A DNA stretch of 64,000 nucleotides from Schistocephalus solidus (taxonomy: Eukaryota; Platyhelminthes; Cestoda; Diphyllobothriidea; Diphyllobothriidae). The notes beneath the pieces were generated by a model. That model was not told the origin of the DNA and ran no database searches. It saw nothing but the letters and a program-made list of their open reading frames with translations. The translations under genes and the position numbers were made by a program. The stretch spans positions 372,001-436,000 of the forward strand of contig WEDG01001459.1 of NCBI GenBank assembly GCA_017591395.1, read 5' to 3'. How positions within the stretch are numbered: position 1 is the first letter of the stretch; the number at the start of each line of letters is the position of its first letter. This document shows positions 1-62,655 of the stretch, in pieces.

Positions 1-3000
1 AGATTGATGATAACAAGAAAATGGTACAGCATCGAACATAACAGTTTCTGCTTAGCACGTAGTAGCAGAAACGAAACTTTATTTTTACGAGCTTTCAAAT
101 TCATGCGGTAGACCCACGTCGAAAATGAAAGCAGCAACGAACCAGGTGGCATAGTTTGCATATTTTCACCAATATTGCCGTTTCAGCAATAAAAGTTTAG
201 CAGCTAAAACAGTGGGCACGGCTTAAGTGCCACACCTATCAGGGGAAGATGGAAGACATCAAATGGAGGGATTCGTTCCGTGCAATGGTCGCTAGCGAGA
301 CCAGTGCGTGTGCTGACGGGGCTGCGTCTTGCCTTCGAGAGTGTCGGTGGTTTTGAGTACTTTACTGGGTTTGCGAGAATATATTCAGGAGGTTTCGTGC
401 GCAAACCAAATGATGCTTTACCCAAGACAAGGATGACTAGGCTTTTTCCCCGGACGCGCGCGTCTGTTGGTGTTGTAGTAGATCAGAGTGAAAGGTCAGA
501 GCGTGGGGAAGAGTTTGCACTATGGGTGGTTCAACTTGACGTGGCAGAGAGAGAGAGAGAGAGTTGAGCGAATACGGTGGGCAGGGTTATGACGATGGTC
601 GGCCCCTATTGCACAGAGCTGGGTGAAAGGGCGCGGCATTATGGCTCAGTAGAATTGTGCGAGCTGTGGTTATTAAGAACTGGGATGCCACGACATTAAC
701 GAAACGAGCTTGTAGAAAAGTCGAGGGTGCGTGCACGGTGCGAGCTTTATCAACAATCGCAGGGGAAAGAATAATGCTAATTTTATAGCGTAGAGTTGTG
801 GCAGAAACCAGGTCAGGAACGGCTAGATTCCTCACAGGTATAACTTGCGGCCGCATGAATAGGCAAAATCGTGTCTGGAATTTTAGATATCACCTGCGTT
901 GGGAGTGTGATGAACTTATCGGTATATTTATTAAAATTACTTATTACATGTTTCATACAAACAGGCATTGCATAGGTCTTTGACTTAACAGGATATATAC
1001 AAATTAGATATCTATAGAAACGTTGAAAGTAGTTTAAAGCAGGTCCGATTATGAAACTAAATCGTTGTCCCAGAGAAAACTCAATTAACCGTTATGCTGA
1101 CCTTTTTCCCGCATAGATTCTTACAGTGCTAGATTTTTGTCATTTAAATTTCTCTTCGGTTTCGTTTATAGTCACTGTTATTGCCAATGATTATTACCCA
1201 AATTGCTATGGAGGATCAGATAAATAAAAATATTTTTGCAGTATTCCACACAAGTGTATTAATTTAGCCCAAACCATGCATGCTAAACGAGGCTAAATTG
1301 AAGGCCAATTTAAAAAATTACCAAACCACTGAAAATGCATAATTAAAAAATCGCATAAATTTCACTCAATCTCCGTTTACAAGCAGAAAAAAATTGAGAA
1401 AAAAATTTAGCTTCAAACACTTAAAACAGCAGAATTTAATCTTTTATTTTCACTATTTTTGACCAATACCATTTCATATCTGTTATCTACAGATCGCATT
1501 AATTTACCGATGAAATTAGTTTTCTATGCTCATGTACAGTAGATTCTTTATGTCAACAGAAATTCTGAAATGTGTTTCTATTCAAACAAATTACTCAATT
1601 AGGCTTGTCCTATTAATGCTCGTGCAGCCTAGTCCCAAGAAATGTCAGCCACGGTAGGGTGCCGCATTTTGAGCGAGCTCCTTCCGGCCGCTGGCAGGAA
1701 GGACACAGTAAAAAATGACTACATAAGAAGTATGTAATTTTCTCATTAATTTGCAATGCTCCTATTAACTAAAATTTCTTTTAATAGAAAACATGTATAC
1801 AAATACTCTTTCTTTTGCTCATTTGATAACTGAATAATTGTTAAATTCATTGGCCATTACTCTTGAATTCATGGTTTCCAAACTACATGCCGGATGCATT
1901 TTATGCAAAGAAAAATTAGAAATTTCTCTACGGTATGATTAAGAGGTCATCTAGTTTTCAAAAAATATTGCAATGGAATTGGATCATGCTGTATGCATTA
2001 TAGGCAACCTTAATAAACTGACAAATGCGATGTGTTATGGATGGAAATTTCAAAGTTTTAAAATTCTGATTATTAGAAACTTTTTAAAACCCTAAAATAC
2101 CCTTTCTTTAAGTATAAAATTTGATGAAAACGTAATTTTCTATCAAAACAGTACGAGAAATAATATTTTGTATATGTATTTGTAAATATATTAAAATAAT
2201 TTATAGCATCGAAAATCAATGAAAACATTGCATGCTACTTAAGTAGCCATTTTTTAGAGTGTAATGTTTGCAGTCGGTTAAAAAGCAGCTCTTTAAAAAC
2301 TGGCATCCTACCAAGGCTGAGATAGCTTAGGATTAGGCTTTCTGATAATCAATGCGACAACCCTAATTAAGGAATGTTTTTACATCGAAAACACATTTCA
2401 GAATTTTGGTTGAAATTTAATGAAATAGAAAATCTACTGTATTATCACATATAAGCGAAAACGTAGGCAGGAAGAAAGCAACAGGAAAGAAACGTTAGTT
2501 GTACAATAATATATACGCCTAGAAAATGGGCACCGTAGTGGAAACAGCCTTTTTAGTAAACGCTACATGTCATCAGTTTAGAATTCTAGGTGAAGGCTTG
2601 CAATGGTGCTTCGGCTGTATGCGCGGCCAGTTTGCCCACAATAGAAAAATTCTAATGAATGGTGAAAAATACTTTGAACATATCGCAACATGGTGAGTTG
2701 CATCTCAGAAAAGCATGAACAGACGCATGGTAGCTCAACCGTTGTGCAGAACCACAATCGCCATCCTCTGCTATGTGCGTGAATCGCGCCCTCAAGTTCA
2801 GTCGATCTTTCCAGGCTCCAAGTTCTCCGGTTTCAGGACAAGTGGAAATACGTTAGTGCAATGACCAACTATGACGTTCCTCTAATTAATGGCATCACAC
2901 AAATGAGGCTCCACTCAAAGATGCATCCGAATTTGCCAATCACTTTTTCGATTCCAAAAGTAGTTAGCATTCAAGCAAGACGCAAAAATCCGTTTATGCT

Positions 3001-3694
3001 TGCTCAGGAGATAAGACTGCTAATTGTGGACATGTTCTAAATGTTTGGTGGCGTTCGTCCGGCTCTTTCTTTGCTGGGTTCTTTCCATTCAATAATTTCT
3101 GGTTGTCAATTTTTCCCAGAAGAGTCGGAGTCGCAAAGGCAATTCACCTTCCTCTCCTTTCTGCTAGTGACGTTAATTAAAAGTGAAAAACTCACATCTA
3201 CTTACGCCTGACTATATGAGTACAAAAATGTTTGGTTTTGTTGAACCAAGGATAAAATTGGACACAAAAGCTACTCTTGTTAGTGAAACACGCTTGTATT
3301 AGAAGTTGAATAACGCTGAGGCAACTCCTCCCCAAGTGGCTTTACTCAAGATTATGACAAACGAACTATTATCTGTTCCGAAAAGAAAGTGTCTTAGAAT
3401 GATCAACATCCTTCTAACACTTTCATCGGTCTTCCAATTTGATTATTTGCACTTCTGTAGCTGAAACCATTTACAACTAAACGCCCTGCAAGGACAACTG
3501 TCACCGGTGAATAGTCGGTTGATGACTTTAGAAAGCGTCTTAAATACTTTTTGTTTTCTTCGTTGCATCGCTTCATTTACTCTACAAAGGTGTTCTGGAA
3601 AGCTTTCATTTATGGGTATAGAAGTGAAAGGTATTACGTAAACAATAAGAAGGATAGATTTGAGGGACAAATCTGCTCAAATGAGTAGACCTAC
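1..3694. other. Left edge: presumed intron 13, no supported exon
   Basis: I looked here on the minus strand for the missing M13 C-terminus (the GENIAD-type zinc ligand, the VWC block, the terminal Cys-x-x-Trp) and saw none. The sequence is mostly AT-rich. A short (GA)n run lies at 546-563. The stretch 2600-2990 has higher GC and may be an old repeat, but I could not assign it. Confidence 0.5.
546..563. repeat. (GA)n microsatellite
   Basis: Nine uninterrupted GA dinucleotides in otherwise unannotated sequence. Confidence 0.85.
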
Positions 3695-3873: not shown

Positions 3874-6800
3874 CTGACCGAGAAAAAACAAGTGGCTGGT
3901 AAGTTCTCTAGTGTTTTTCGTTCTTAATTACGGGGCTTACCGTAACGTTAATAAGGTCTGAAAAATTATCCCCTGATATAACGGCTGAGACCCTCCGACG
4001 CCTTAATTTGCGTTGCCTTTTATAGGTCAATGAGAGGAAATAAAAGACAACAAACCACCAGAATCTTATGGGTTCATGTACTACAAAGAAGATGCTGGGA
4101 ATGCTAAGGCAAGATATTTTAAATTTGAACACAAACTATGTGTCACTGGGACTATTTGTTGCTGCTAATCTGCACGTCTTCCGCGGGTACGAAGGTCATT
4201 ATTAATAGTATAGATAAGTCGAGTTCGGCAGAAGTACGTTCTCAATTAGTTGCCAGGCCTTACAGTAACGTAAGTCCGGGGGGAGGTGGTTTAAGAAAAG
4301 TTTAAGCAGCCAATAAACAATAACTATGGCGCAGATGGCTGAGGACGTTCAAAATTCGGGGGTTATAGTCTAGTTCGGATAGAGCTTAAGAAGGGGGCGA
4401 GGCGTGAAGAGGGGTCTCATAATTAGCTCTCTGTGTTTTGGCGTTGTCACGTGACGTGGCAGGAGGTGTGAGCAAACATGCTGGGTTCATCTTGGGCCAG
4501 AGGAGCTTTGGGACCTGTGTGAACGTTTGGTAAGGATGTCTTGTATGGCCGCCTAAATAGGATACGGGAATAGAAACGCCCTGCTCACTTAACATAGGTG
4601 GCCCTGCGATAAATTTCCTGAAGGGTAAATATTCCCCTGTCTTAACCCTAGCACTAACGCTGGCATAAAACTTAAATTTAACCCTAATATTATGCATAGC
4701 CCTACCCTAAACATAAACCCCACGTTAAAATGAACCCAAACCTCAGCCCTTAACGTACCCCTGACCCTAACCCTCATCTTAATCCTAAACCTTTTTTTTT
4801 CGGGATTGGGCCTAAAGCCGCACGCATTGCAGCTGGTCCTGTTCTCATGAGCAGCCATACAAGTCATCCTTACCAAACTTTTTATGCGAAAACCGTATTG
4901 TGATAGCTAACCGTACGGTCACTGCATCTGCTGGTCAAATAAAGCTATAGAACTGGCTGCCGAAAACTTCGGTCACAAAGAGCCTTTTGGATAATAACTG
5001 AAGAGTGGTGTTAAAGGACCCTTTTCTCGTGGACAGTTCATATGCTGGGCTATGTGAAGCTCACTTTATTGCGAAAGGAGCGCAAAGGACTTATTCATGG
5101 ACTTAATATTTATCATCCAGGATGATAATTTGCTATTTAATTATTCTCAATCAGTTCAGTTCAATCTGCATTAGTAGGTGCACTGACTGTCCGAATGCAT
5201 TTGGCTTCCTCAACAGTTTAGGCGTGTATGATATTCACATGGAAGAAGGATGTGTTGACATGCAATTAGAGTACGGCTTATAGGGACGCCAATTCAATTG
5301 GTTTGCCACATATCCGAATCAAGTATTTAGCAGTAAAACTTGATTACGCGTAGTATCACGAACTTTCTACGCTTATGATGGTTACCACGCCCTATTAATT
5401 GGGAAAATTATAACTTCATTTCAAAATTACAAATGAAAAAAAACAGAAATGAAAAATCTTCCTTTTGAACAGATGATACTACTATATGGGTGGACTTTAT
5501 TTCAAGTAGGATACTATTGCCTCCGTGGCAGGGTACAGCACTGAGCAAGTGCGCCAGTAAACGGCTGGTAATTGTGCTGAAATAGCACCTGGAAAGACTA
5601 CCTATGGTTTGAGGGTGCCCAAAGCAGGAACTGATGGATTGGTAGAGGGCTCCTGGGAAAGGCAATAACTGCAGCTTTTGTACTAACCTATATTTAAGCG
5701 TCCGTTGATTGGATAAAATCAAGTTGATTGGTTTCGTCGCGTACTTATGTCATCTGCTAATATACGGTCGAGGTTTCATGGAAGAAGTGAGCACTAGGTG
5801 ATTTGCAGGCACCGTAAACTGGCAGTCACACCAGGTGCGCCAGACTGTGCAATTTCAAGTTTTATAACACCAATGCAAATTGCAGGCGTTTGCTTTGCTC
5901 AAAGGACCCCGAATTTGTAGAAGCATTTTGCTAATGCGTTCCAATGATAGATTCCGATTACAGTAACAGGATCAGTTTTCATCCATATTACTTTCGTCAA
6001 TAGGCATGTCTGACACGGTCTTCTAATTTGAGAGTATTTTTTCTTTCGTGCGGCTTCAAAAGGCCCAGCAAGCGCGTTTACAACTTCGGTTATAAACCAA
6101 AATTCCATACAACTGCCCCGCAACGTTCATTTAGAATGGACAATATTAATTTTTTTCAATAAAGCCCTAGAAGAATATCATAAAAAAGTACTAATTAATT
6201 TTTAGTCACACACAGAAAACATCTCTTACGTCTTTAGGCTGTCATTGAAAAGCTTTTGCAGAAGCATGAGGGTCTTCGAACGCGCTAAGGTGAGGCTGTT
6301 CTCCAAAAATGTATCTGGGCTCAGTGAAGGCTACAATGGAGATGAAATTCAGTGCTGATTATGTGCAAAGAGTCTTTAAAAATTGTTCAGTAAAGCATTA
6401 AGGATGTTTTGTTGATTTCATAAGCGTTTCTTGTTATCGAGGTTTTCAGAAGATGCGCTACGTATTAACTAGACAAATAAGAGCGACTCTGAACTGGTGA
6501 CTCTCTGGCGACTATCTGACTCTCTGAACTGGCAACTCTCTGGACTTCAACACCCACGTTCCTCGGTAGAGTGGCCGATAACAGAAACCTGTACAGAAAA
6601 CGTTTATTCAGTACGTATGACGTATTGTCCGTAAAATCTATCTGTCACTCAGCAAACAATCATACGTACGGTCCCACGCATTCTTAAGGAGTAAACGACA
6701 GTTGTTGAACCTGTTTTTACTTTTCTCCGACCAAACGGACGTGCTCGGCCCTGGGAAATTTGAAGACAGACATATTGTAGGTTTTAACACATTTATGGAT

Positions 6801-9800
6801 GCTCTGATAATCAGCAAAAAAGCACGTCAAATGGCTCGGCGAATTAGTGCAGCATCCGAGAACGTCAGCTAATTAGTCAACCCACTGGCATCCTGTCTCG
6901 GCCTCTGTCGGAGATATTGAGTCCCATTTAACCATGTGGAGCCATTTCTATCTGTTGATTAAATGAGGGAAATAGTCGGTGATGAAAATCGGAAAATGTG
7001 ACGAAATCGTGCACCATCTCACACTGGTCATCTGCTGAAGATCTACCCTTATGCCTATGAAAACCCATGGTTAGCTGGTATGCTAGTCCTCAGGTGCTTT
7101 TGGTAAAAAAAAGATAAACAGAAATCTTTATTTGTTAGCAGTTTGTAGAAGGTTCTTTGGCATGCAAATTGATGCTCAACAAAAATAACTGTTCATCTAC
7201 TCCTTGTTTGGAAACTAATTGGAGTTGGTTTAAATGAGCGGAATGACATCTACACGTGGGTTTCTTGATCTTATTTACACAGGAATTCGCACGGCCTGTA
7301 TATAGAGTAGGTAAAATTAGGAAGGTCCAGCTACGGTTAGTAAAATGAAATATGAAATAGCATTCAGAACTGCAAAAAGTATAGTTCTGCAAGCATAGGA
7401 GCGTTTTAGACGCATATCTTGCTGCGACAGTCAAACCATTTAAAAATAGACAAAACCTTACATGAAACGTATTCCTGCAACTCAGTTCCATTTAAGACTG
7501 CTAGCTATTGAAATACTTGAAAGAGAAGAGTTAACAATAGACAGACACTAAGTCCTTTTCAGTCAAAATTTACCAGCTGTCTAAAAAATATTTGCAATTG
7601 AAGGCTTCCCTAGTGCAGTTTACTTGGTAGCTAGAGACCAATTTACAACTATTATTATAGCAATGCCGGCAACAGATGAATTTCAATTTTAAATGAATTT
7701 GACCGTTCCGGTGATTGTGTAAATGCCTACTTGCATAGCGTGCTAGGTGTGCATGGTTTCAATTTTGTTTAATTGCGGAAGTCTGCTTGTTGCTGTTAAT
7801 CTTCAGCCCTCAAATACAATTATGAATTTCAGCTGCTCATTATTATACAATTAGTACCATGCACAAAAATAATACACGTAAAATTAGGAAAAAAGTATGT
7901 AACTAGCTAGTACCCAAAGGTGTTAATACATCAGCTTACCCAGGCTCTCACATCAGGGAGTAGAAATGACCAAAACGTATTTTAGTGCAGCAAAAGTCTC
8001 ATGAGGGACTGTGTTAAAAGTTCCAAATAATATAAACGTGATAGGAATATAGTCATGGAAGTCATACTGTAAAGTTTTTTTGAAAAATCTATAATAAACT
8101 TCTCTAAATATTTCTTTTATCAATTATGCCTGCTGGATTAGAATTGTTTTACGCAAATGAGTGCATCTATGGAACTTAACAGAGCGTTCTTACCTTGCAT
8201 TACAGTCTATGCTTCCATAAGATAATTATATAAAAACACGCTAATAATCAAGACAATAGTGCTACGTAAGGATACCCCGACCTGTAGCGTAAACTATTTC
8301 CGATTTGCGCCATTCTTTTATCTCAAAGGTCATCAATACTTGCTGTGGTCAACCAGTTTCGGCCGCAAATTATTTTCGATTAAAAATTGCCTGATTCCGG
8401 GTCTCAGCCTTATGTTAGTTCAGTACATTCGCTGGCATTAGGCTGTTTAAATGAAATCTATGATCCGCGGGCCTACTTGAGTTATGTCCACATCCTAAAA
8501 TAGTTGTTTTATTTGTTTCAGAATGCAAAGAGTAGGTGTGCTTCAGCCTGTTCTGCATCCCCGGCGTGAGGAATTAAACAAACCACCAAGAGTGTATTTT
8601 GGGTGAAGTAACAAATGGGCATACTTGTAACATATTGACAACCTGTTAAATCCATTAAAGGCCTTGACCACTAACAAAATTTTCCTAGCAGATTTAAAGT
8701 CTAAGGAACTTCAATGAAAAGAATATAAATACTAAAATATGAGACCAGGAAAATACAAGTTTTGTCTTTAGAAATGTTGCAGTTGCCAAGGGTGTTCTGG
8801 TGGAAGATGGCTCCGAGCTAAATGAAATCGCACCTGTGCTGCTATCTCCCATTTAGTTATCGTAATCATACGAAAACCTGTGCGCAAAATTTAAATTTAA
8901 AATTCAATATAGTGTAAAAGTCATCAGATCCTTTTGCTTAACATTTGTACCGTTTTCCTGGGAAGGTGTAAAGCACCTTATTTAATCCGTTTGAATACAT
9001 TTAAGGTGTGCGTCGTTATAAGTAGGGTGTCGAAATTTTTATGAGCAAAGCTTTTAGTTGGGCTCAGTATGATCGAGCTAGAAAAAACATTATTTAGAAT
9101 AACATGAACGACAAAGTCAAGTAAGACTGAAATGGCCATTTCTGGCTAATTAGCCTTCATCAACCAGCCGTACACAATCCCAGGCATTGCGGTGCCCGAG
9201 GCTCGAACTTGCGATCTGTTGGTTAGATGTGCAACGCTCTAGCCACTGCGCTACGAGCTCAGCGTCTTGTCGGTTTCGAGTGGGAATAATAACAATGATA
9301 GATGGGTGCTCACCGATCGGTTACAGGACCCACTCGTCCTCTCTACCGCTCGCCCATCTACCATTGTTAATATTCCCACTCCAAACCGACAAAACCACGA
9401 GTTCATGGCGAAGTGGCAGCCGTTGCACTTCTAACCAATAGGTAATGAATTCGAGCCTTTGGTACCGCAGTGCCTGAGGTTGGGTTGGGTGACTGATGAC
9501 GGCTAATAAGCCAGAAATGGCCCTTCCAGCCTCCCTTGTCTTTGTCAGTCATGTTATTCTGCCTATATGATTAGCTGACATGCGGCTGCTGCCGGGTCTC
9601 AAGCGTGAGCTCCAAGGAAAAATGGGACGAATGAGTTCTGTAACCGATCGGTTAGTGCCCCTCTACCATTGAAAATCATTCAATGCGGAACCAAGTTGTC
9701 ATCAAAGTCTCTGATCTCAATCCCATAGTATATATAAATTATATATATAATATTATATATTATATATTATAACACACGAAATGAGGCTTAAGGACATACA

Positions 9801-15800: not shown

Positions 15801-18800
15801 GCAGCGTTTTAGTTTGATGATGATTTCGCCTTTTGCAAAATGAGGGTTCATGATGTTTACGTAAATATGCATTTCAGTTATTAGTCTTTCGATGTCAAAA
15901 CACGTACACTAGATTTGAAGAAACGTTCTTACATTTCTCAGACAATAAGTGAGCACGACTAAAAAGCCTCCAGTCACGTCTTGGCATTGAATTAAGTCCA
16001 AGCCTGATCCTGCCTAAGAGGCTAAGAAAAGTAGTCTTGCAAAGCACGTTACTGCATTTCTGACTGGATTTCGTGTGTGTGATCTTAAGCGCGCTTAGAC
16101 ATTTGGAGTGAAGGACTAGTATGAAGATGTTTTTGACACTTATGAAGTGTTAGATTTTTGAAAGACTGTTACTTTCCTTAATAGTTTATTAGATACAATT
16201 GGATAAACTTTATATTTTTGCGAACGTCGCAATTTAGAGACAGTAATTTCAATGAGAGTTAAAAACATGCATGAGACTTCCGAGAAAGGATTATATTAAG
16301 GCGCATACTATTCAAGTGTTTTGATGAAGAAACCCTGAAGGATCAATAATATTTAATTATAGGTTACTGGTCATATTTTTCTAAGTTTGTGTAAAGTCAA
16401 AACTGTCCTAACCACTTAATGAAATTCATCAAATATTGATGTTACTATAAAATGCAATATAAGGAAGCAGGCCGACAATCTTATCTTTTTATCTCTACTG
16501 TAGTCTGCGTGGTTCTTTGGATATCGGCCATTACTACCGGCAAAGACTTATGTCTCGATAGTTTATGTCTCATCGAAACCTTTTCTTGTGCATTTTTAAG
16601 GTGACTATATCATTCCTTGTTATCAGTGAAACTTTGCCAGCACCGATTCAAATAGTTTTAAATCATAATTATATCGAAAACTCCCATCGTTCGATTTATA
16701 TGTTAATCCCAACGAGTGAAAAAGATAGATATAACTGCATATACGAACCGCGAAGGAATAGAGCCATTGTGACTGCACATTTTTTCTTAATCCCGGTAGA
16801 CTGAAGTAAAGCAGTCGGAGGTTTAGCAAAACCACATCTTTTAATGCTAGAATATAAACGGCCTTACTAAGATGTACGCTCTGTAGGTTGGTAAATGCTT
16901 CGTCTGTTAAAAAGAGGCTCATTTTTGGAATTCTGAAGAATTGAGCATTGGTTTAGCATCACGGTGTTCATAGACTTTACGTCAGTCTAATTCTCACAGT
17001 AAACTGTGGTTCCGCGAAAAAGAAAATTAACATCTGCAGGGGTATCTAAGTTGATTGGCTTCGTGTCTGTAACGTATCTTGCATCTTTTCTGGTTCAGAA
17101 AAATTCTTGTAACAGTAGCATTGATTTGACCGCGTGGTAAATAAGCACTTATTGAGGTTTTCTCAGACATTGTAAGAATTTACAGTAAGCCTATCTCTGG
17201 CTGGCATCAATCTCAATATTTTTCAATGCTATGCTTTCCTGTAGTGCTGGCAGTGGCGTTAAACCCAGAAGGGAGTTTACGTAAATTGGTGCATTAAGGC
17301 TGAGAAGCTGATATAATTAGTTCGGCCTTCGAGTTGTATCCTTCCCAAATGTTTTTTTGTCGGACGCCGAAGATGTAGCCGGCCTCTCCTGGACGAGATA
17401 TGGTTTGAGCACGTCGCAAGCCGGTTTTATAGGAAGAGGGTGTAAAGTTTTCGTTCAATTTCTCTCAAATGATCGACTTCAAATATGACTGCCGAAGTCA
17501 CAAGAACCAACAAGCATTTAAGATGAATTAACGACAAAGACTTAGACAGCGTTTACAAAGATCAGCACAAACTGCTTGTACTAGGAGATCTAAATAGCAA
17601 TCTCCTATATCAAAAGGGTTATATGCTATTTTTGCTAACTACATCCGCCAGTTTGCACGTGAGACAAGGCTATAAGCAGCTCATCATTTTCGCAGAGGGT
17701 TGTGGTGTGTAGTTTTGACAAAATTTACTTAATTCAATATATCAGCTCGAAATCCTTCTAAAATTTTATAAAATATTTCTAAAAGCAAAAATTATATAGC
17801 ATATCAACAAGTAGACTTACTCGAGTGATCTTTAGGTCGGATGTCTCGAGGTAGTACTCCGGTTGCATACTAACAACCCCAGGAGCAAGCTAATTTCAAA
17901 AGTTTAAATAAAAAAATGTTTATTTAACCGTTCATTGACGAATTTTCACATTTATAAATAGATATTTAATGTTTTCGTTATGAATAACACTTAGGTAGAC
18001 AACAAATATGCTTTTTCGAAGGGGAGAGCAATAAAATGTGAAATGGTTCTGAATGCTAGAATTTAGTGGTGTGAACGTCTTATTTTTAAGCGAATTTCCT
18101 AACGCGAAAGCAATTTAGTTTTAAATTTTAACAAACAGTTTCTTATTTAAATTTTACCTTGTTAAAAGATTTTATTTCAAATTTTCATTATGAAATTTCA
18201 CAACAAAATTATGGAGAGAATATTGAACACTAAATTAGATGAGATGGAAGTATACTGCAACTGGCCATGGAATTTAGGTTGAAAGTAGGTTCCTTTTGTA
18301 GAATTATCTCATAACCTGGAGTAGGAACCTTTCTATGACTTCTAGCTTCTCTGCGGATAAATATAAATTTTAAATATGTTCTTAGTTTTGGTGAAAACGG
18401 CCCATATTTTTACCGAACCTGGGCATTTACGTACTTCAACTTTGTGCAAATGCAGAAATTCGCAAAGGTTAAAGCATTTTACTTATTAATTTGTCAGTTG
18501 AGTGAAATACGTTTATTCCGAACGATTTTAATTATTCCAACGCTGGTCCCGGCAGATCTCGGGGATTTTATTTGTTAAGCAGAATAGTCTGGTGATCGGA
18601 TAGAAGAGCTACTGAGACAACATCGTTATGCGAAGGGGCACAGAAAGGCTAATTGAAACAAATTTCTCAAATTACAACTAAAACAAAGTAAGACTTTATT
18701 ATACCGATATTATAGCATATTAATAACAAATGAGATGACAACTTACCGAAACAGAGATAATTTATTCTTAAAATAATGCAAGCTGATAATCCATAGATAT

Positions 18801-21800
18801 CTTATCAAATTCAAAATTCAAAGTCACAGAAGGCACTGCAAGCTGATAATCCATAGATATCTTATCAAATTCAAAATTCAAAGTCACAGAAGGCAATATT
18901 TTGTTTACAACATCGAACAAATCTAAAGAGCTTCCCACGCTCCAATATTTTTCGGTATCATGAAGTCATTTTTAGTGTTCCCGACTCTAACGCTTCAAGA
19001 ATATGCATGGTTGAGTCAACAGAGAGGTTATATAGTGACATAATTAGTGCATGTTCAAATAAAATGAGTTAATAAGTTCAGTGTTAACCTGAAATTCTAC
19101 ATATGATATTGCTTGTGAAAAAAGAACTTGTCATCTTTGAAGATTTTGTCACAAGATGTTAGAAGATGATATGAGAACTTTAGCCGCATAAATCTTCCAT
19201 CAGAATTTTTTTATATTTTCAATATAGAAATACACACTGCGCCTGTTATCACAATGTATAAAATTTCGAAGCAGTTTTCAGAATAATATGTATAGATATA
19301 ATATAGCAATTTTTAATAACAGCGATACCGTTCAACTTTATTCATTTAAATCATCTTGCGTTAAGAAAAATTACCCTATTTTCGGGTTAAGATAACTTGT
19401 TTTCACATTTTGGGTAGATTAGGCTTTCTCAGTTACTATACTTGGAAATTAAAACGTCAGAACGAGTGAAATATTTAGGATTTCAAAGAGCAAAATGCTG
19501 TACTTTTATGATAGAGAATTCTAGAGGCTTATTTATTAGCTGCAACTCCGATGTAACGCACCACAAAAAAGGATTAAATTAAATCCCATGTTTGAAAGCA
19601 AACAGGCGTACTTATTGAAGAATATCGAAAACCTTGATCAGTTGGTAACCATGTTATCAAAACAGCTGAAACGTGACCAAACAATACAGCCGCTTAGTAT
19701 TTTGATACTATTGTTATTTATCGTTAAGGGCATATTATCCATGGCTAAGTTCGGTTCCATTTAAATATCCTTTTTGTGTGCATCTTCAGTTTGAAAAAAG
19801 TACTATGGTAAATAAACACACAGTTTGCGAATGAAATCGATACTGCACCTACTTACCGTGATAGAAAAGCGACTGGAATTCTTCGGGTCCCTTTCAACAA
19901 GTAACTGGAATATATCGATTCCATGTCCAAATTGCAGAAACCGACCTATCAAATCTGTGAGGTCAAATTTCTGCGGCGTAAAGGGATCCTCCAGGTCAGA
20001 TCTGGAGCCCGGGGTACCGGGTGGCAACAATCTCCAGCCTTCAAACATTCGGATCAGAACATCCTGAAGTGGCTTCAATGCGAGTTTATCAATTTCATGT
20101 TCGTTGGTGCAAGAGGCATAGTAGACTTGAGCCAGTTCCAGTCCTCGGCTGTCCGGTGATGTTGAGGTGTCCTCTAAATGTACAATGTACATTGGTAATT
20201 TTGGTAGAACGCTTAGGCTGCTGTCTCTACCGACTGGGTACAATGGGTATCGGTTGTGCCTGAAATTAGTTAGCAGTTATGTTTGCTTACGTGCTGGCAG
20301 TATACCAGTGTTAAAGGACAGTTGATTGCCTATTCACAGTAGGCGAAGTGGAAAGAAAGAGGCTTATTTGTATTTTCCTTGCTATCGAGCGCCAAAATGT
20401 GTCGCTACCCAGAACATAAAATAATTTTTAGACAGACTTCTAAACTCATCCGGGTTGGTTGCTTGCATTTTCCGGGGTAGTTTATTATGGAAAATAGAAA
20501 GAAAAGATACTCGATGCTTGATATGAGCACCTATTTCTAATTTTATCCGTGAAGGCCCGGTTCCAAAATAATCCAGCATGGCTGACCAGACAGTCATTAC
20601 GACAGTCGGTGAAAAAACTCGGAAGTTTATGTTTCCTTAACTCTATTAGTATTGATTCAATTCAACAAAAGAAATTAGACGCACATATTTTGATATCACT
20701 GTTTCACACGTTAAAAACACCTGTAATTATGAGAGCACAGTTGTGGACCTTCTCACCCCTATGATTGTAATGTGTTAAGAGACAAACACATTTTTAAACT
20801 TAAGGTCAGTCTGCGGTATGCTTCAGAGCAAATGTGCTTGATCATGGGTGACAAAGAATTAGCTTTTACTAAGCGATAAATTGTCGTCCCTCGACATCAA
20901 AGCAATTATCGCAAATTTTGACCTCAAATTATGTCTGTCGTGATTATTTATGGAGACCTGATGACCATATAATAGACTTTTTCTTACCAAAAAAACTCAT
21001 TTAAAGTTCAAATAAATAAATAAAAAAGGAGGGAAGTTTCTAGCACACGTCGAATGCAGGTTTTTACTTCAACCACGGCATCCTCCTCCTCAACGTGGTC
21101 ATGGCAACTACCACGAGAAGAATACCCATTAAAATAATTTCTTAATTCATTTTAATTACTTTAGAAGACAAACCAACATACACGTATATATGTTTTAAAG
21201 TACGTCCAGCTAATTCCTACCCAAAATGAGCTGAAATTATCAGAGTAGAATTTAAAAATGTGGGTTTTTTCAGTTTGAGCAGGTTGCAAAACTGTTAGAC
21301 TGCAGTTAAATTTGACGAAGACGAAGAAATTAGGAAGAATTTAATGATGCCATAAAAGTAAATGACCTTCTATTTAATTATATGCCATCCTGGCATAGTA
21401 ATGGGATTACCTGTTTGCCAAGAAATGACTCAAATATGTCAAAATCAGGTACTGCTGAACTGGTTTTTGAAAGAACCTAATGTTAGGTTGAAGGGATGAT
21501 TATGGAAGAGGTCCCATGCCATCGTTTTTGATTCCTATAGGTCGTTTCATGATGGACAGGAACAGTGGGTAGATAAATTAGAGATCATTTAAGTGTATGC
21601 TAGTTTTCATATAACATTCCCTTTGTCTTCATCAAATTTATTTAGGAAAAAAATGTTTTAACTCTCTAATGTAGTTACATCTAGGAAATACAAGCAAGCG
21701 ACACAAATTTCAGAGCACCCGTAAAAAACGATAAAATTATGACTTTTCTGATGGAATAAATCAGCACTTTTTTCCAGCTCATATCCAGATAAAAATTATT

Positions 21801-24800: not shown

Positions 24801-25135
24801 TCGTCTTCAGCCAAATCTTACCCAACCTCAAGTTTGCATGCCTTGTGATTTGAGTTTGACCCTAACATAATTCATAAACGCTCCTCCATCATAGTTAATA
24901 TTTTCAATCATAACTGACCACAAACATTGACCCATGTCTCAATAGTAAAGCGTTGTGCTTAAAAATGATTAGTTACCCAAGAAACCGGGGTTGAATTCCA
25001 AGTCATGTGAACCCGATGTTGGATAAGGCTGTCTGACGAGGGCTAATAAGCCGTAAATGTCCATGCCAAGCTCCCTCGTCTTTGTCCGTTCATCGGATGA
25101 ACACTGACCTAGCCTGATCAGTGAACGCACTTCTA

Positions 25136-33786: not shown

Positions 33787-34089
33787 ATGTGGAACCGACA
33801 AAGATAAAGGAGACCGGAATGGCCATTTCTGGTTTATAAGCCGTCATAAGCCAGTCATACCCAATCCAAAGTGTGGAACACCTGGGATTCGAACCCACGA
33901 CCTTTGGTAATTGAGTCGAACGCTCTACCGTTGAGCCACGGGCTCATTGCTTTGTCGGTTGCGATCGGAAATATGATGATAGTGTGCGGCTCACCGATCT
34001 GCTTCAGGAACATTTTATGTTCCGTTGTGCCCTGGAACTCAGACTAGAGCACTCACAGGCAGTCGCATAGCGACGTGTAGCATATGTTG

Positions 34090-39720: not shown

Positions 39721-40015
39721 AGGGTGAGAAGGATGGTAGGCGATGAAGCAAAGCCTTTTTTAAACTAAGCCGGTAAATTTATGGTTATCGTTCAGCGAAA
39801 TCTGATCTGAGACAAAAAGGAAAAAAATAATCAGAAGTACTGCGACATCGACTATTCAAGAAATCAAATTTTGTTACGCTGATGCTCTCTGAAAGTAGAT
39901 TTAACTGAAGACCACTCCTAACGCATGAGCAAACAAAGCGAAATATTTGGGATGCCTTTAGATTTCAAGAAAACCTTGATCGCAATGGTTTATATGCCTT
40001 TCCCTCCTCCTCCCT

Positions 40016-40165
40016 TGCAGCAAAGTACCGGAAGAGTAAATATTTCCGTGTCCTAACTCTAAACATATCTTAACCCTAATTTATCTGAAAATTAGCGCAA
40101 GATCACCGGAGTAACGAGCGGTTCCCGTTCCCGCGTCCTGTTGGGAGAGCCGCATAAGCAACCCC
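40016..40165. mobile_element. Inverted-repeat element with telomere-like core, copy 3 (truncated)
   Basis: GGAAGAGTAAATATTTCC, a short CCCTAA-type stretch (TCTTAACCCTAAT) and the right end GGTTCCCGTTCCCGCGTCCTG match copies 1 and 2 in the same order. The left inverted repeat is missing. Confidence 0.6.
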
Positions 40166-53409: not shown

Positions 53410-53927
53410 CTGGAGAAAGAATGTCGTCCGACCAGTCGCCAACTTTAAGAACCAAGTGCTAATTATCTTCACAATGAACTTAACATCCTATTGTACTATG
53501 CTGATGATATATCCAGTTTAATTTTTTACACTCAGAAATACGCAATTTGCGTCTGGGATTTTTCGAGTAAGTTTGTTTACCTGAACTGGAAATTACGAGG
53601 GACAAGGTACCACTGGCTGGTAAGGCCCTGAACTCACGCCCGAGCGTGCCGCCACATCTCCTGGATTACGCACAAAGAACGAGTACTGTGTGGGCTGTGA
53701 CCTGCCTCCTGGCATAGCGGCAGGCCTAATAACTTCCCCCTCCATACTCAGCCCTCAGAATTTGCCTAAGCAAAATAATTACTGGGGCATAGAGTGTGTG
53801 AACGAACGTTGTTTTAGTGACAGTATCGGGAAACCAAATGTTGGAGTACCTATCACGTCAATAACAGACACTCTTGGTTAAATAGCGGGTACTAACGAAC
53901 AGTGTGCGGGTGAGAAAGTGACTACAG

Positions 53928-54329
53928 GGTAAGGCTGACCTATGTGGCCGCCTAAAGAGGACACAAGAACCGGAAGCGCCCATGTGGCTATGCGCCCGTT
54001 TCAGGCGAAATTTGGTTTAGGGTTAAGATGTGGGTCAGAGTTACGTTTAGGGTTATGTTTAAGTTTAGGGTTAAGGTCAGAGTTGGGGTTAGGGGGGGAT
54101 TACATTAAGAGTTAAAGTTCAGGTTCTTGATAACTGTAGGGTTGTTCATTTAGGGCAGGGCAGGGTCAAAATTAAGGTTAGAGATCAATGTAGTATCAGG
54201 GTTATTGTTGGGGTTTGGCCTCGGCAATATTTACCTTTTAGGCAATTTATCGCAAGGCTGCCTATTTGAAGTGGATGGGGCGTTCCTATTCCCGTGTCCT
54301 GTTTAGACGGCCATACATGTCATTTTTCC
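53928..54329. mobile_element. Inverted-repeat element with telomere-like core, copy 2, with 9-bp target duplication
   Basis: The element starts GGTAAGGCTGACCTATGTGG and its other end reads GGAAAAATGACATGTATGG on the minus strand; both then continue into GCCG(C/T)CTAAA-AGGACAC. The core (about 54010-54215) is a degenerate TTAGGG-type array, in the opposite orientation to copy 1. TGACTACAG stands immediately on each side (53919-53927 and 54330-54338), a perfect 9-bp target duplication. No coding frame is present. Confidence 0.85.
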
Positions 54330-54443
54330 TGACTACAGCACGAAGAGCAAATGGCTACCATTAAGGTGAGCATGCCTTTCATTTTGATATGTATGTGCGG
54401 GAGTAGAAAACGCCCTCCTTGTGAGCCCACTAACGTTATATAA

Positions 54444-62439: not shown

Positions 62440-62655
62440 AATCAGGTATTGTAACACCTGGGGGTGGGTATGACTGACTGCTGACAGCCGATAAGTCAGA
62501 AATGGCAATTCGATTCTCCTTTGTCTTTCTCAATGAGGTTGTTCGCCCTATACTACTAGCCACTGTGCGGCTGCTGGTGGGGCTCGATAGTGAGCCCCAA
62601 GGCAGAACGGGACGAGTGACTGCCGTAACCGATGGGTGAGTGCCAATCCAACATT
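62440..62655 (+). mobile_element. tRNA-derived SINE family, copy S5 (body and tail)
   Basis: GGGTATGACTGACTGCTGAC, AGAAATGG and CTCCTTTGTCTTT, then GTGCGGCTGCTGGTGGGGC, GACGAGTGACTGCCGTAACC and GATGGGTGAGTGCC match the body and tail of S2. The tRNA-like part is not recognisable here. Confidence 0.7.

Follow-up and report, generated by a model that had tools for sequence, protein, structure and literature searches.

A short inverted-repeat element with a degenerate telomere-like array in the genome of the tapeworm Schistocephalus solidus

Interstitial telomere-like DNA is often taken for the scar of a chromosome fusion or of repair by telomerase. A stretch of 64,000 nucleotides from Schistocephalus solidus (contig positions 372001-436000; hereafter the window, whose own numbering is used below) holds two dense clusters of TTAGGG-like motifs, and the question raised by this locus is whether such events or a transposon placed them there. 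The two clusters contain 12 and 13 near-matches to TTAGGG per 200 bp, the next highest value in the window being 5 and the averages over the window 0.79 for one strand and 0.71 for the other. These two strongest spots are the cores of two copies of an inverted-repeat element, copy 1 and copy 2. Exons of an M13 peptidase and of ARF in the window indicate that it is animal DNA. The genome searched comprised 603.7 Mb in 8,019 contigs.

Copies in the window and across the genome

Copy 2 is full length (53928..54330, forward strand) and 80.5% identical to the family consensus described below. Its terminal inverted repeats, 54 bp in the consensus, lie at 53928..53981 (forward) and 54277..54330 (reverse), and the degenerate TTAGGG-type core between them at 54015..54219 (forward; limits set by eye against the consensus). 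The 8-bp target duplication GACTACAG is found at 53920..53927 and again at 54331..54338, both read on the forward strand. Copy 1 (4529..4874, reverse strand) is 84.4% identical to the consensus but lacks part of the core, of which 164 of 207 positions are covered (4640..4792, reverse strand, limits by eye); its flanks, GAACGTTT at 4521-4528 and AAACTTTT at 4875-4882, match at 6 of 8 bases. Copies 1 and 2 run in opposite directions, and their homology (72% over 262 bp) has an E value of 2e-33 to 4e-31. The inverted ends scored 40 in copy 2 and 38 in copy 1, values reached by none of 2000 shuffles in either case, which bears out the terminal inverted repeats claimed for copy 2. A weaker control, random 60-mer pairs of the same geometry within the window, reached a score of at least 40 in 15 of 5000 draws. 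Thus the inverted ends alone are no proof of a transposon, and it is the further copies that prove this status.

Copy 3 (40013..40161, reverse strand) is decayed and has lost most of the core, consensus position ~103 being joined to ~289. It matches the family with 36.6 bits (E 8.8e-11), the best of 20 shuffled windows giving 6.2 bits, and is a true but decayed relative. The original prediction that segments at 4529-4874 and 40016-40165 share both ends and core with copy 2 was therefore right for copy 1 but, as regards the core, barely so for copy 3, which belongs to the family but retains only about 22 of the 207 core positions.

A whole-genome search with copy 2 as query gave 2,190 first-look candidates. 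The best 40 were scored and all matched, so that the element occurs in at least 40 places (51 matches including partial ones). The best 30 loci were read, one of them (L009) being copy 2 itself, and the element was present in all 30, although only partially in L023. A consensus was built from 26 of 33 extracted elements scoring at least 100 bits; the elements omitted were L010, which has flanks in common with copy 2, L013, L018 and L023, together with the second copies in L011, L012 and L027, which were too short. The consensus is 412 bp long, and its ends are identical 54-bp inverted repeats (GGTAAGGATGCCTTGTATGGCCGCCTAAACAGGACACGGGAATAGGAACCGCCC), both of which start GGTAAGGATGCC... and so open with GG. 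Copies are on average 85.3% identical to it (range 80.5-91.0, 26 copies), indicating that the family is old. Most copies were found by their likeness to copy 2 and the sample is therefore biased towards it.

The copy in L010 lies on the same contig (463223-463621), 37 kb from copy 2. Among the matches listed, its flanks and those of copy 2 (region of 53928-54330) agree at 87% over 1,130 bp in inverted orientation, so L010 reflects a local duplication and no separate insertion.

With its 412-bp consensus, inverted repeats, lack of a transposase gene, for which it is too short, and many copies of uniform structure, the stretch is a MITE, and the dispersed high-copy inverted-repeat element is real. 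Three copies in the 64-kb window and ten further pieces in ~90 kb of locus flanks would put the total of copies and fragments in the genome at ten thousand or more, a figure extrapolated from few, perhaps unrepresentative stretches and not a count. Rfam at its gathering threshold gave no match, and neither did a phage collection.

The target duplication and the telomere-like core

Flanks of 30 copies, with ends fixed by a profile model, were compared at lengths of 5 to 12 bases. The mean match was 0.68 at length 8 and 0.27-0.33 at lengths 5-7 and 9-12; at length 9 it was 0.32 and none of the 30 copies reached 75%. Eight-base flanks matched at six or more positions in 18 of the 30 copies, perfectly in six, and at five or fewer in the remaining 12 (five at 5/8, seven at 4/8 or fewer). 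Copy 2 is counted twice here, from the window and as L009, and L010 has the flanks of copy 2; among independent insertions 16 of 28 match at six or more of eight, five of them perfectly. Three full-length copies found by a search with an end alone (L077, L082 and L078, see below) match at 2, 4 and 1 of 8 bases, and adding them gives 16 of 31 insertions. Decay or recombination in an old family would explain the poor matches. The target duplication of the family is 8 bp.

The perfect 9-bp duplication originally predicted for copy 2 needs revision in this light. Nine identical bases, TGACTACAG, do stand on both sides of copy 2. However, the consensus sequence CATCCTTACC is represented by CATTTTTCCT at the 3' end of copy 2, and this alignment places that end at 54330 with the final T inside the element. 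The ninth matching base, this T, is taken as a coincidence, eight bases plus one by chance, and the nine-base duplication looked for at other insertions is absent by the counts given above (0/30 for nine bases, 18/30 for eight).

The core of the consensus is ~207 bp long and was resolved by TRF as a period-6 TTAGGG repeat of 33.5 units with 67% match, in agreement with the predicted degenerate array of about 200 bp. The order of its variant units is common to the four copies compared, copy 1 (83 bits), copy 2 (139 bits) and the second copies in L012 (87 bits) and L027 (35 bits), and none of 100 unit shuffles reached the score in any of the four cases. Copy 2 is in the training set of the model as L009; the other three copies are outside it. 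Since copies share the order of their core units, the array was already degenerate in the founder, before the family spread.

A second genome search used as query an 89-base end free of core. The best 40 of 1,561 candidates were scored, giving at least 40 places. From these, the six best-ranked places not in the earlier set were read, one of which (C3722) is also in the copy-2 match list. Core sequence was present in all six (42-112 bits); three copies are full length and three match in separate pieces, as after deletion or rearrangement. The telomeric motif thus travels inside the element, as had been proposed.

Core-less copies had been named as evidence against this proposal, and core-poor pieces do exist. 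The flanks of L009-L038 happened to contain ten further pieces of the element. Three of these retain 172-207 of the 207 core positions, and the other seven retain 10-73. The seven are read as products of decay or deletion because other parts are also missing or the pieces are short. One piece, L033:2994-3157, and copy 3 lack nearly the same stretch of core. The core shows an identity of 0.842; the two inverted repeats have values of 0.835 and 0.855, and the two unique parts 0.801 and 0.862. The core is therefore conserved no better than the rest, which rules out special conservation and gives no sign of selection on it.

A scan of the genome for perfect (TTAGGG)6 gave 84 overlapping positions in forward and 55 in reverse orientation, those listed lying on five contigs, with none for a reversed-motif control. 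Tapeworm telomeres are of the TTAGGG type in the passages of PMC7653826 and PMC6458723 concerned with them; PMC7653826 prints the hexamer as GGGATT there, the probe used being TTAGGG. The motif is likely to be the telomere repeat of the host.

Merlin transposases and the arrays beside them

According to the passage of PMC8101967 that defines it, the Merlin superfamily has GG termini, inverted repeats of 24-462 bp, duplications of 8 or 9 bp and an IS1595-type transposase. Both consensus ends of the MITE open with GG, its inverted repeats are 54 bp long and identical in the consensus, and its duplication is 8 bp, with three further full-length copies lacking a clear one. The ends, said in the original prediction to match no nameable family, therefore fit the Merlin definition. 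The genome itself is rich in such transposases. The profile PF12762 (DDE_Tnp_IS1595) gave at least 150 matches (150 scored of 316 candidates, best E 5.3e-19), and four Merlin transposase open frames were confirmed. The transposase of locus L003 is 93-94% identical to named Schistocephalus solidus proteins over 66-82% of the query and 50-67% identical to Spirometra or Sparganum proteins. Merlin is mentioned for cestode genomes in part of PMC6880638.

A full-length relative with the same ends and a transposase, as the original prediction envisaged, was absent from the 42 PF12762 loci read (L001-L008, L039-L058 and L063-L076, from the 316 candidates in the genome): none has a transposase bounded by the element's own ends, although many were covered on one side only. 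With the ends of two Merlin groups found here, Merlin A and Merlin B, the MITE ends share the initial GGT but diverge after it, the best local scores being 14 and 10. Membership of Merlin, judged on sequence features, is consequently likely rather than proven. Given the age of the family, an autonomous partner may be extinct. Merlin fragments in L071-L073, group D, were considered as the partner and rejected. The end-like match in L071 reaches only 5 bits and is no boundary, since the similarity of L071 and L072 continues upstream of it; L071 also holds a separate MITE copy. Another separate Merlin group, C, is formed by L058, L063 and L067. Its identity to the L003 protein is 50-52%, the long open frames of L058 and L063 span 350 and 355 aa, respectively, and no element ends were located in this group.

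Twenty Merlin loci were read with long flanks (L039-L058). Downstream of the transposase, seven of them (L041, L042, L048, L050, L052, L053 and L057, labelled Merlin B) have TTAGGG-like arrays of ~0.1-1.1 kb, that of L057 barely reaching threshold. Applied to masked background sequence totalling 148,861 bp, this threshold yielded no array. None passed in L001-L008, and among L063-L072, which have little downstream reach, only L071 did, with a MITE copy nearby. Compared with the L003 protein, Merlin B transposases show 59-79% identity, a range into which some loci without arrays also fall. The left end was recognised in six of the seven loci, five of them of the type TAGGAGCA. When L053 was extended by L059, both ends were found ~5.3 kb apart with the array between them, the ends being GGTAGGAGCACAATAGGCG... 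and an inverted match to it, and the flanks CAACAGTT and TAACAGTT (7/8 by eye). No right end was found in the other three extended loci.

In Merlin A, a degenerate (ACT)n array lies downstream of the transposase in five of the seven loci counted (L003, L004, L005, L006 and L008; for example L003, reverse complement, 2830-3402), roughly where Merlin B holds its TTAGGG-like arrays. In-phase AC amounts to 58-69 per 100 triplets in these five loci and to 14 and 17 in L001 and L002. Right ends were not found in the Merlin A loci counted.

The motif and, partly, the period are common to the MITE core and the Merlin B arrays, and TRF reports the repeat unit TTAGGG for the MITE core, L041 and L052. 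However, between 7 and 53 of 100 unit shuffles reach the observed score when the unit order of the MITE core is compared with those arrays, and the spectra of unit variants are uncorrelated (rho 0.24, p 0.33). These results give no support for direct derivation of the core from the Merlin B arrays sampled, nor for a common origin of the two. The MITE consensus and L048 both show an 18-bp higher unit, but this is suggestive only, because the commonest single-base variant in background sequence is likewise TTAAGG.

What moves the element and where its core came from

The element is an old, high-copy, cut-and-paste MITE whose founder already carried the degenerate TTAGGG array, and it was probably mobilised in trans by a Merlin-type transposase. 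A Merlin-type (IS1595) transposase would recognise the 54-bp GG-initial inverted repeats of the ~412-bp MITE in trans, and insertion by it would give the 8-bp target duplication; the founder array would be copied passively with each transposition and decay together with the rest of the element. The original suggestion of a Mutator-like (MULE) family was drawn from the nine-base duplication. MULE ends can be long, and short MULE members share the inverted repeats and the lack of coding capacity seen here; the nine matching bases at copy 2 alone speak for a non-autonomous MULE. MULE duplications are ~9 bp, whereas that of this family as a whole is 8 bp, and the GG ends and the wealth of Merlin transposases point elsewhere, making a MULE very unlikely. 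Elements of hAT and P, too, typically make duplications of 8 bp. A MITE of one of these, or of an undescribed superfamily, would be compatible with the duplication and with the failure to find a partner transposase in 42 Merlin loci, and the three end-only copies without a clear duplication lowered our confidence in Merlin and raised it here. But hAT and P ends usually start with CA, and those of the element open with GG, as in the Merlin description of PMC8101967 cited above; such a mover is unlikely, though less so than a MULE. Compared with the Merlin superfamily, the element has the same GG termini, long inverted repeats and 8-bp duplications, with TTAGGG-like arrays in some Merlin loci here, and differs in being a MITE without transposase and with no autonomous same-ended copy among the 42 loci. 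In the passages of PMC8101967 concerned, Merlin copies of Symbiodinium have 163-bp and 12-bp tandem repeats, and telomere-like arrays go unmentioned.

The source of the core is a separate matter. Interstitial telomeric sequences include telomerase-mediated insertions at breaks, and the core resembles them in being TTAGGG-type DNA away from chromosome ends. Fusion or telomerase healing, acting site by site, would accord with a TTAGGG motif at period 6, the type of tapeworm telomeres (PMC7653826 and PMC6458723, in the passages noted above), and with the perfect (TTAGGG)6 in the genome. It would leave unique junctions and no common flanking element; instead, one array in one unit order in the tested copies lies between common ends at many sites, most of them with target duplications. 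Site-by-site healing is thereby refuted, as the original prediction held, and a fusion or healing reading, which can hold for the founder only, is scarcely tenable for the family. The core differs from such sequences in having been spread by transposition. A more serious alternative, compatible with mobilisation by Merlin, is that the core was never telomere-derived and that Merlin-type elements in this genome grow degenerate simple-repeat arrays, TTAGGG being one motif among others. The (ACT)n arrays in five of seven Merlin A loci favour it, as do known MITEs with hitchhiking microsatellites, for which part of PMC6947457 gives references. Against it, TTAGGG is the TRF unit of the MITE core, L041 and L052 and the likely telomere repeat of the host, and we place it somewhat below an even chance. 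The founder may thus have gained its array as a captured telomeric repeat, perhaps added by telomerase or captured during repair, or by expansion of a short internal repeat, a route suggested by the ACT arrays in Merlin A.

Further, the degenerate simple-repeat array downstream of the transposase could be a working part of Merlin in this tapeworm lineage, with the telomere motif in one group of Merlin loci and in the MITE, seeding thousands (an extrapolated number) of telomere-type tracts. We regard this as a long shot; if it were true, the seeded tracts might be bound by telomere proteins or appear as interstitial signals of telomere type.

The element is a telomere-motif version of known repeat-carrying MITEs and requires no new mechanism. 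Coates in 2011 reportedly described (GTCY)n MITEs of insects, and Hikosaka in 2004 Xstir repeats said to ride on a Xenopus MITE. These too are short non-autonomous inverted-repeat elements that spread a simple or tandem repeat; in the present family the repeat is a telomere motif that had degenerated before the family dispersed. An incomplete search of the open-licence literature turned up no inverted-repeat transposon reported to contain a telomere motif. A sugar-beet paper (PMC2820488) was set aside as a precedent, telomere-like motifs and MITEs appearing separately in the part concerned, as was a Pipa paper (PMC6803351) as a source on Merlin, 'merlin' being the name of a frog there. The main text of the Spirometra genome paper (PMC4265353) contains neither 'Merlin' nor 'transpos' nor 'telomer'.

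Because ends, core and target duplications are common to many sites, a transposon has spread telomere-like DNA in this genome. Unless the family is masked, fusion points in these worms should not be inferred from counts of interstitial telomere motifs or from FISH signals. The long degenerate arrays in the Merlin loci of one genome, TTAGGG in some and ACT in others, make the role of arrays in DNA transposons a testable question.

Other repeats were seen in the window. A large imperfect palindrome at 9096-9560 (75.6% over 476 bp) has relatives at 9473-9670 / 62457-62655, 33794-34009 and 25012-25089 and is probably another inverted-repeat element family. An inverted pair at 1550-1760 and 2205-2416 (71% over 213 bp) has ACAGTAGATT close to its outer ends and possibly represents the ends of another transposon. 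A perfect 60-bp tandem duplication lies at 18777-18895.
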